The position numbers and the translations under genes are program-made. The notes beneath the pieces are model-generated. The model did no database searches. It was not told the origin of the DNA and was given only the letters and a program-made list of their open reading frames with translations. A stretch of 64,000 nt of DNA from Candidatus Faecousia excrementipullorum (GTDB lineage Bacteria; Bacillota; Clostridia; Oscillospirales; Oscillospiraceae). Positions 13,900-45,515 of this stretch are shown here, in pieces. How positions within the stretch are numbered: position 1 is the first letter of the stretch; every line of letters starts with the position of its first letter. The stretch lies in the NCBI GenBank assembly GCA_018712825.1, contig DVGG01000026.1, positions 55,171 through 119,170 of the forward strand. Reading direction: 5' to 3'.

Positions 13900-14727
13900 T
13901 CAGCCTTTTTCCGGAAAGTATTTTTTCTTCATCTGGTGAAGTGTTTCCAAAGACTCGGTGCCCCGCTGTCCCAGGCGGTCGCTGACGGCAACCACCAGGG
14001 CATCCACCATGGCTGCCGGGGCAGTCAGGGAATGATACTCCTTCTCCTCGCCCCGGTACACAAACAGGCTGATATCCGTCCGCTCCCGGGCAGGAATGAT
14101 GGTACGGCTGACAAATGCCATGGTTTGGTAGCCCGCATCCTTCCCGTGTTCCAGGATAATCCGTCCCTCCCGGGACAGCTTGGAAAAGCTGAACATCACC
14201 ACAAGATCTCCCTGTCCAGCCTGCACCAGGCCTTCCAACAGCTCGGAGCCGCCGGACGGCAGCAGCACAACCGGCAAGCCCAGCCGCCGCAGACGAAATG
14301 CCAGCATCTGAGCCAAAGAGCAGGAGGCGTTTTTGCCGTGGAGGAAAATCCGTCTTGCGGAAATCAGTGACTCCACCCCCCGGTCAAATTCCTCCGGGCG
14401 GAGCTGCTGTGCGGTTTTTTCCAGATACAATCTCTGGCGTTCCAGCCATGCTGCCGGGGAAAAGGCCCCATCCTGGGACAGGGTTCCGGCAATTTTGGCT
14501 GCCGGCCCGGAGGCCTGCTCCATTACCATGCCTTTCAGGGCCTTGAAATCGGCACAGCCTGCATGGCGGGCGAAGCGGGAAACAGTGGCATCGGAAATTT
14601 CCAGCCGCTGGGCCAGCTGTCCGATGGAAGAAAAGAGAAAACCGTCGGGATTGGTGTTGATATAATCAAGAATCTTTTGCTCCGCCCGGGTCAGCTCTGC
14701 CGCAGGCACGTTCAGGGAAAGTACCAC
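13900..14727 (-). CDS. MurR/RpiR family transcriptional regulator (HTH + SIS)
   Basis: N-terminal HTH (IGQLAQRLEISDATVSRFARHAGCADFKALK) and SIS region (ARRIFLHGKNASCSLAQMLAFRLRRLG). Confidence 0.9.
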   Translation of the reverse strand: MVLSLNVPAAELTRAEQKILDYINTNPDGFLFSSIGQLAQRLEISDATVSRFARHAGCADFKALKGMVMEQASGPAAKIAGTLSQDGAFSPAAWLERQRLYLEKTAQQLRPEEFDRGVESLISARRIFLHGKNASCSLAQMLAFRLRRLGLPVVLLPSGGSELLEGLVQAGQGDLVVMFSFSKLSREGRIILEHGKDAGYQTMAFVSRTIIPARERTDISLFVYRGEEKEYHSLTAPAAMVDALVVAVSDRLGQRGTESLETLHQMKKKYFPEKG

Positions 14728-34900: not shown

Positions 34901-34928
34901 ACGGCGGCAGCCCAAAAGGACTGCCGCC
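34901..34928. repeat. 28-bp direct repeat A1 = terminator hairpin, left flank of element copy A
   Basis: ACGGCGGCAGCCCAAAAGGACTGCCGCC, identical to 35180-35207. Confidence 0.95.
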
Positions 34929-35179
34929 AGACTGTCAGTAAAGTCCCAAACCGGCAAAAGCAAAAGGAAATGGGCTTTCATCCCCTTTTGGAGGATTGGT
35001 AGAAAAACCAGGTGCAGTTCCTCCAACAAAAGCCCGGAAATTGTTGCTGCGCAACGCTTTTGCCTTACTGCGCAAACGCCGCCCTACCGTACCCTATGTA
35101 CGCCGACGGGCGGCGTTTGCTTGTCTTTGTGCCTTTCTTGACAGTCTGCCAGCGTGTCAAAAAGGTTTTTGACACGCTG
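34929..35179 (+). mobile_element. MITE-like element copy A (219-bp core 34929-35147 plus 30-bp side hairpin 35150-35179)
   Basis: Core ends AGACTGTCA...TGACAGTCT; near-identical inverted copy at 40038-40289; flanked by exact 28-bp repeats. Confidence 0.88.
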
Positions 35180-35207
35180 ACGGCGGCAGCCCAAAAGGAC
35201 TGCCGCC
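35180..35207. repeat. 28-bp direct repeat A2 = terminator hairpin, right flank of element copy A
   Basis: Identical to 34901-34928. Confidence 0.95.
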
Positions 35208-40009: not shown

Positions 40010-40037
40010 CAGCAGAACAGATTTTTCTGTTCTGCTG
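40010..40037. repeat. 28-bp direct repeat B1 = terminator hairpin, flank of element copy B
   Basis: CAGCAGAACAGATTTTTCTGTTCTGCTG, identical to 40291-40318. Confidence 0.95.
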
Positions 40038-40289
40038 CAGCGTGTCAAAAAACCTTTTTGACACGCTGCCAGACTGTCAAGAAAGGCACAAAGACAAGCA
40101 AACGCCGCCCGTAGGCGTACATGGGGTACGGTAGGGCGGCGTTTGCGCAGTAAGGCAAAAGCGTTGCGCAGCAATAATTTCCGGGCTTTTGTTGGAGGAA
40201 CTGCACCTGGTTTTTCTACCAATCCTCCAAAAGGGGATGAAAGCCCATTTCCTTTTGCTTTTGCCGGTTTGGGACTTTATTGACAGTCT
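40038..40289 (-). mobile_element. MITE-like element copy B, inverted relative to copy A (219-bp core 40071-40289 plus side hairpin 40038-40068)
   Basis: AGACTGTCA...TGACAGTCT; reverse complement nearly identical to 34929-35179; 28-bp repeats at both sides. Confidence 0.88.
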
Positions 40290-40290
40290 G

Positions 40291-40318
40291 CAGCAGAACA
40301 GATTTTTCTGTTCTGCTG
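40291..40318. repeat. 28-bp direct repeat B2 = terminator hairpin
   Basis: Identical to 40010-40037. Confidence 0.95.
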
Positions 40319-44834: not shown

Positions 44835-44876
44835 ATGCAAGACCGAAGCAGCATTTTGCCGCTTCGGTCTAAGTTT

Positions 44877-45515
44877 TTACTTTTTTTCTTTAATTTGGGC
44901 CTGCAGGTGCATGGACAGCACTGCAAGAGAGGTTGCCATGTTCTCATTTTGCACCAGAATGTTGCCGGGCACGTCCAGATGCACCGGGGCAAAGTTCCAG
45001 ATGGCCTTGATTCCGCAGGCAATCATCCGGTCGCAAACCTCCTGGGCGTGTTCCGACGGCACGGTGATAATGCCCATGAGCACCTTGTTGGTACGGCAGA
45101 AGCTCTCCATCCGCTCCATGGGGATGATGGGCTTGCCGTCCACCGTTTTCTCCGCCTTGGGGCTTATATCAAAGGCTGCCAGAATGTTCAGGCCGTAGGC
45201 CTCAAAGCCGCTGTAGCCCAGCAGGGCCTGGCCCAGCTTGCCGGCACCCACCAAAATGGCGTCTGTTGTATTGTCATAGCCCAGAAACTGGCTGATATCC
45301 TCAATCAGTCCCTCCCGGAGATACCCGATTTTGGGGCGGCCGCCGTCGGACACCAAAGCCAGATCCTTCCGGACCTGCACTTCGCCCATACCCAGGGCGT
45401 TGGCCATGGCGGTGGCAGAAATATAGGGAGAGGCCTCCTCCGGGATGGTCTTCAGGTATGCCAGATAGCTGGGAAGCCGCTTGAGAACGGACTTGGAAAC
45501 TTCTTTTCGCTCCAT
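44877..45515 (-). CDS. rex: Redox-sensing transcriptional repressor Rex
   Basis: RLPSYLAYLKTIPEEASPYISATAMANALGMGEVQVRKDLALVSDGGRPKIGY; GAGKLGQALLGYSGF. Confidence 0.95.
   Translation of the reverse strand: MERKEVSKSVLKRLPSYLAYLKTIPEEASPYISATAMANALGMGEVQVRKDLALVSDGGRPKIGYLREGLIEDISQFLGYDNTTDAILVGAGKLGQALLGYSGFEAYGLNILAAFDISPKAEKTVDGKPIIPMERMESFCRTNKVLMGIITVPSEHAQEVCDRMIACGIKAIWNFAPVHLDVPGNILVQNENMATSLAVLSMHLQAQIKEKK

Follow-up and report, generated by a model that had tools for sequence, protein, structure and literature searches.

IS1272 and TnSha1, members of the IS1182 family in staphylococci, target hairpins without sequence preference, and several of these hairpins are transcription terminators (PMC4923244; PMC5678879). 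Furi et al. described terminators targeted by IS1272/TnSha1 in which the stem-loop is deleted (PMC4923244), and Wan et al. drew, beside their stem-loop-replacement model for IS1272, a hypothetical “pathway b” in which the whole stem-loop is duplicated (PMC5678879). A choice of palindromic sites has also been described for IS1111 (PMC10969869). Our literature search on whole-hairpin target duplication, with ISfinder duplication lengths outside its scope, returned the IS1272 papers only. Among other mobile elements, the target duplications of ordinary MITEs are short and nearly fixed in length, and a DDE transposase, whose two active sites sit a set distance apart, produces fixed-length duplications that are normally short.

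Here, we analyzed a stretch of 64,000 nt (hereafter, the window) that contains two copies of a short element, A and B, each lying between direct repeats of a whole terminator hairpin. Copy A is probably a MITE that an IS1182-family DDE transposase mobilizes in trans, with an extruded terminator hairpin as its target and the whole stem-loop duplicated by gap repair.

Two copies of the element in the window

On re-reading the sequence, the 28-mer ACGGCGGCAGCCCAAAAGGACTGCCGCC was found exactly at both 34901-34928 and 35180-35207, and between these repeats lie a 219-bp core (34929-35147) and a palindrome with 14-bp arms (35150-35179). The imperfect terminal repeats and a 13-bp internal stem (35072-35084 / 35108-35120) were likewise as the first-pass annotation had described them, and it was also right in seeing no credible gene in the core: open reading frames that cross the ~250-bp element extend into its flanks. 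The motif AGACTGTCA occurs 4 times in the window versus 0.35 expected, a count reached in 0 of 100 shuffles.

Copy B lies 5 kb from copy A on the minus strand (40038-40290), with a 219-bp core 98% identical to that of copy A; a hairpin unlike copy A's stands on both sides of it as an exact 28-bp repeat (CAGCAGAACAGATTTTTCTGTTCTGCTG, at 40010-40037 and 40291-40318). Both copies sit between convergent reading frames; they do so in opposite orientations, i.e., the orientation of the element relative to its neighboring genes is not fixed.

Boundaries set by flank comparison give an element of ~253 bp with ends CAG...CTG, with CAGACTGTCAATAAAG / CAGCGTGTCAAAAA as terminal inverted repeats in addition to an inner repeat, and with the palindrome inside. 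This 30-bp palindrome had been correctly located but was initially listed beside the core. A reading of it as part of the target is rejected, as it recurs in copies A and B, at unrelated sites, and in other genera; it is the element's right end. The duplication at copy A measures 27 or 28 bp, the element's first C being common to element and repeat. The features of both copies are as follows (window coordinates, strand, description).

34901..34928, no strand: left terminator hairpin copy of copy A; exact repeat of 35180-35207; single in the relatives G301 and G136; last C shared with the element
34928..35179, plus: complete mobile element copy A (MITE), CAGACTGTCAGTAAAG...TTTTTGACACGCTG; from 10 flank comparisons and empty sites
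34928..34950, plus: left terminal inverted repeat and subterminal arm, 5' side of helix P1; pairs with 35126-35148
34953..34961, plus: 5' arm of helix P2, GGCAAAAGC; partner 35056-35064; 9 pairs conserved throughout 14 elements, two-sided changes in 6 of the pairs
35056..35064, plus: 3' arm of helix P2, GCTTTTGCC; partner of 34953..34961
35072..35120, plus: helix P3 and its conserved loop CTACCGTAC..GTACGCCGACG; two-sided changes in 8 of 13 pairs; the loop does not vary between genera
35126..35148, plus: inner right repeat, 3' side of helix P1; pairs with 34928..34950
35150..35179, plus: terminal palindrome P4, its outer arm being the right terminal inverted repeat CAGCGTGTCAAAAA; similar to the left end of IS1182 elements, CAGCTTGTCAAAAAACT; missing from the short copies L008 and L011
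35180..35207, no strand: right terminator hairpin copy of copy A; exact repeat of the left copy
40010..40037, no strand: left terminator hairpin copy of copy B; exact repeat of 40291-40318; terminator-like on the minus strand, T-run outside
40038..40290, minus: complete mobile element copy B, 253 bp; core 98% identical to copy A over 219 bp; site empty in G301
40291..40318, no strand: right terminator hairpin copy of copy B; terminator-like on the plus strand, tail GTTCTTTTTA

Hairpin duplications and empty sites in close relatives

In the window's genome (G000; 78 contigs, 1.96 Mb), the element is inserted at no fewer than 12 places, copies A and B included, and the closest named genomes in which the core is matched exactly are those of Candidatus Faecousia excrementigallinarum and an uncultured Eubacteriales bacterium (Faecousia belongs to the Oscillospiraceae, Clostridia). 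For 10 insertions, both sides could be recovered, and each of the 10 has a whole hairpin directly repeated on its two sides, with 10 different hairpins and duplications of 24-38 bp. Four of these sites were joined across contig ends, with all 4 pairings confirmed by contiguous empty sites in relatives, and the one-sided insertions (L004 left, L010) both adjoin hairpins. Duplication lengths in bp, in core orientation, are given below.

Exact: copy A 28; copy B 28; L011 31; L012/L003L 38; L013/L004R 27
One mismatch: L007 28; L003R/L014 32; L008 24 (26, exact, in the G301 ortholog of L008)
More changed: L006 31 (five mismatches); L005/L009 33 (loop altered)

On contigs L003 (G000:C34) and L004 (G000:C61), the left and the right flank of the element belong to two different sites, reflecting either recombination between copies or misassembly.

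Searching the joined flanks of copy A against 136 genus members identified the same site with one hairpin and without the element in the close relatives G301 (93%) and G136 (88%). The copy B site is empty in G301, and single-hairpin empty sites were found in G301 and/or G136 for L006, L011, L003R/L014, L012/L003L, L013/L004R, and L005/L009 as well, i.e., a total of 8 sites empty in these draft genomes, with one hairpin each. The L006, L007, and L008 sites are occupied in G301, hence these insertions are older. Copy number and empty sites support the proposal of a non-autonomous mobile element, and empty sites with two tandem terminators, which the first-pass annotation had named as counter-evidence, did not appear among the 8.

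These empty sites also bear directly on how the hairpins came to be repeated. Since terminators can be tandem and palindromes are unstable, the flanking hairpins might be tandem terminators predating the insertion, or products of later slippage, with the element merely lying between them; we regard this as exceedingly improbable, given a single hairpin in all 8 homologous empty sites and the recurrence of the duplication pattern at ~50 sites whose hairpins are unrelated, across several genera, as well as in further families of the order. Pre-existing tandem terminators are ruled out by the single-hairpin empty sites. A stem-loop replacement resembling that of IS1272/TnSha1, in which the element would supplant a terminator and bring its own, deserves next to no credence either, despite the shared transposase family and kind of target (PMC4923244; PMC5678879): at intact sites, the target hairpin is present twice and matches the empty-site sequence rather than being lost, and replacement is refuted for these copies by a hairpin that is duplicated instead of deleted.

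Three copies are shorter (L008, L011, and that of L007 in its G301 ortholog): their similar inner and outer arms have been joined, with loss of the palindrome, and the duplicated hairpin still adjoins their end. In the left hairpin of L006, both sides of a pair have changed after insertion, from ATTCC/GGAAT to ATCCC/GGGAT (G000 and G301, compared to the empty site L147 in G136), hence flanking hairpins stay paired while diverging. G301 also carries a different ~170-bp insertion, GGGAAGTCCTGCACCAATCGGC...GCCGATTGGTGCAGGGCTTCCC, which adjoins a terminator (L145, reverse complement ~14000-14170, opposite window 44873-44878), and pieces similar to it lie near copies in G136 (L054, L237).

Family spread, target sites, and the probable IS1182 partner

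Relatives of the element were found in other genera of the family, and in genera g52 and g92 and in G136 its length is still ~250 bp and the hairpin duplication is present. In further families of the order (G870, G731, G697, G774, G582, G649), copies likewise have these ends, the terminal palindrome, and a duplicated hairpin, and a covariance model of the P3 region (R1) matched in 13 of 401 family genomes and 35 of 396 order genomes, often in many copies. These matches indicate an element family that spans many families of Oscillospirales with a fixed architecture of covarying helices, an invariant internal loop, and a terminal palindrome. The element sequences of different genera seem to diverge without a conserved reading frame. 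Distant matches in genus g4 (G174, G224, G264), for which no duplication was seen, may be another element; at L242 (G224:C69), in this genus, the P3-like motif GGCGGCGCTTCCTCGTCTGC forms several tandem repeats.

Automatic scoring covered 63 sites (59 MITE and 4 IS1182). Hairpin duplications were detected at 48 of these, with a few more recognized by eye, and were 20-43 bp long (median 32, 25 exact), a range that leaves out two rows (42 and 47 nt) in which the aligner overran the hairpin. The hairpin covers the duplication end to end at 44 of the 48 sites, a property that 7% of random 30-mers share, and 44 of 48 likewise have either a downstream T-run or an upstream A-run. Along with the 10 of 10 hairpin-flanked insertions in the window's genome, this upholds intrinsic terminators as the target, while the earlier idea of a 28-bp target duplication survives for the duplicated hairpin and fails for its length, which is not fixed at 28. 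Copies lacking hairpin duplications had been named as evidence against this reading; among the scored sites without one, most have damaged or truncated ends, and a few copies have a hairpin on one side only. At 4 of the 48 sites (L005/L009, L225, L230, and L096, an IS in G066), one hairpin copy fits the other better as a reverse complement, i.e., with an inverted loop, which suggests that the hairpin was turned or that repair acted at the hairpin level. An inverted loop does not follow from a plain staggered cut, and the simple model leaves these 4 sites unexplained.

The link to IS1182 that had been suggested at first is supported by relatives, in which autonomous IS with shared termini were found. 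The G066 transposase scored 386 bits against the NCBIfam IS1182 model NF033551 (cut-off 270), with further matches to PF13751, PF01609, and PF05598, and the intact G066 IS is flanked by a 35-bp hairpin duplication. In G301 and G503, where IS copies are broken at contig ends, every scanned IS1182 junction adjoins a hairpin, and pairing the junctions revealed three duplicated whole hairpins, two of them exact (32 and 33 bp) and one of 33 bp with a single mismatch. Overall, four IS1182-family insertions had the whole hairpin duplicated, and their ends are CAG..TGTCAAAAA, as in the element. The sole IS1182-type gene found in G000 lies between hairpins and is a remnant that has undergone an internal deletion; its ends are CAGCTTGTCAAAAAAC and CAGTCTGTCAAAGAAC. 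The right end of the element matches the IS end at 16 of 17 positions for both the G301 IS and the G000 remnant, and the G052 element matches the G011 IS at 16 of 16. Distant IS1182-like genes in G039, G071, G074, and G078 were set aside as further examples, their ends being not resolvable and no hairpin duplication being seen.

Comparison of the element interior to IS copies (blastn, E<=1) returned nothing beyond the end matches and chance 11-mers, hence the element is not a simple internal deletion of the IS, and what we claim is an IS1182-mobilized element, not an IS1182 deletion derivative. Across 16 MITE-bearing genomes searched, IS1182 was absent or fragmentary, with 0 of 16 above the family cut-off, and several MITE-rich genomes (G138, G198, G282, G870, G582, and others) had no IS1182 match, so that the IS1182 partner can be considered well supported in Faecousia-like genomes only.

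The many MITE-rich genomes without a recognizable IS1182 transposase, and an interior that is an order-wide module unrelated to the IS interior, would also be expected if a different transposase moved the element and its likeness to IS1182 ends and targets reflected convergence or cross-use. We consider this quite unlikely: IS1182 copies of related genomes, among them that of the near relative G301, have the end consensus, the target choice, and the whole-hairpin duplication in common with the element, and G000 itself holds an IS1182 remnant with such ends. In addition, the absences of IS1182 may correspond to recent losses or assembly gaps, as IS copies in G301 and G503 are themselves broken at contig ends.

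The right-end module was also observed outside this family. In G031 and G125 (L050, L065, L051, L062), the CAGCGTGTCAAAAA palindrome adjoins another repeat (..CAAACTT..AAGTTTG..TTGATTGAACGCGAA) beside terminators, which is apparently another MITE family carrying the same end module. These palindromes had been considered as solo copies of a 30-bp minimal transposon, a reading rejected because they adjoin this repeat.

Conserved interior, insertion model, and comparison with known systems

Fourteen elements from several genera fit a six-helix structure of 65 pairs, with 95% of cells paired. Two-sided changes affect 23 pairs and amount to 84 cells, versus 25 in shuffles (0/500) and 6-16 with partners slid, and almost no variation is seen in the loop CTACCGTAC..GTACGCCGACG or in the linker CTTACTGCGCAA. 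Rfam 15 yielded no match near or above gathering score, and helices P2-P4 contain 2 G-U cells among ~600. This G-U scarcity agrees better with pairing kept at the DNA level (cruciform or template-switch correction) than with an RNA, without settling the point. In G282, two copies (L233 and L234) have a terminal palindrome of wholly different sequence (CATCGTAACAAAAC.., CAGTGTATCAAAAC..) that is still perfect, hence palindromy is kept, not sequence.

Alternatively, the conserved interior could be an expressed small RNA, i.e., a selected cargo for which mobility is secondary, as the excess of two-sided changes over shuffled and slid partners, the loop invariant across genera, and a far-terminator geometry that would place the element in transcripts all suggest. 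The absence of an Rfam match, a G-U content unlike that of typical structured RNA, and the varying orientation to neighboring genes (opposite in copies A and B) make this unlikely.

For the preferred reading, an IS1182-mobilized MITE, we propose that an IS1182-family DDE transposase would bind the CAG..TGTCAAAAA ends of the element in trans and take the terminator hairpin as target in its folded (extruded) state, extrusion bringing the two feet of the hairpin close together at any stem length. On each strand, an element 3' end would then be joined at the hairpin's 5' foot, and gap repair would copy the entire stem-loop, making the duplication as long as the hairpin rather than a fixed base count. 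This course corresponds to the hypothetical “pathway b” of Wan et al. (PMC5678879). Because the duplication length varies and follows hairpin length, the target was probably attacked as an extruded hairpin, and it appears to be recognized by its folded shape, not by its sequence.

The T-run lies outside the duplication, so a transcript would usually pass the near hairpin, cross the element, and end at the far copy. On each side, the far hairpin copy would retain its T-run, both neighboring genes would still end at a terminator, and the element would end up in their 3' untranslated regions. At copy B, the left hairpin is terminator-like on the minus strand only and the right hairpin on the plus strand. 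The suggestion that each side keeps a working terminator would thus be correct mainly through the far copy, where termination is presumably still retained, the near copy being usually severed from its T-run by the insertion.

A broader reading is possible, if tentative: an order-wide terminator-inserting family whose DDE transposase measures its target by DNA shape and cuts both feet of an extruded hairpin of any length, with the folded P2/P3 interior and its invariant loop serving the transposition complex as a nucleic-acid component with a function of its own, or acting as a mobile regulatory RNA. Hairpin-length duplications of 20-43 bp provide natural evidence for a hairpin that was folded when attacked, and many natural events usable for testing structure-guided integration. 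The insertions also point to a way for an element to insert beside genes without removing their terminators, and they define a repeat family that is widespread in gut Oscillospirales and whose conserved fold is unexplained.

Several described systems share part of this behavior. IS1111/IS110 and IS1397-type elements target REP palindromes and group IIC introns insert at terminators; their enzymes differ from the IS1182 type, and we know of no whole-hairpin duplication for any of them. IS1272/TnSha1 carry a transposase and delete or replace the stem-loop without a target duplication, whereas the present element has no transposase and the whole stem-loop is duplicated. Closest in behavior, the Oscillospiraceae IS1182 IS (G066, G301, G503, G055) have the same ends (CAG..TGTC[AG]AAAAA), terminator targets, and whole-hairpin duplication, but encode a transposase and have only these ends in common with the MITE. 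Bacterial MITEs such as RUP, BOX, MITEAba12, and QMITE are likewise short, gene-less, multi-copy elements with terminal inverted repeats and a target duplication; unlike in ordinary MITEs, the duplication here is 20-43 bp and set by the hairpin, and the internal architecture is conserved across the order. Taken together, these comparisons point to an IS1182-type MITE family whose mode of target duplication, set by hairpin structure, is new.
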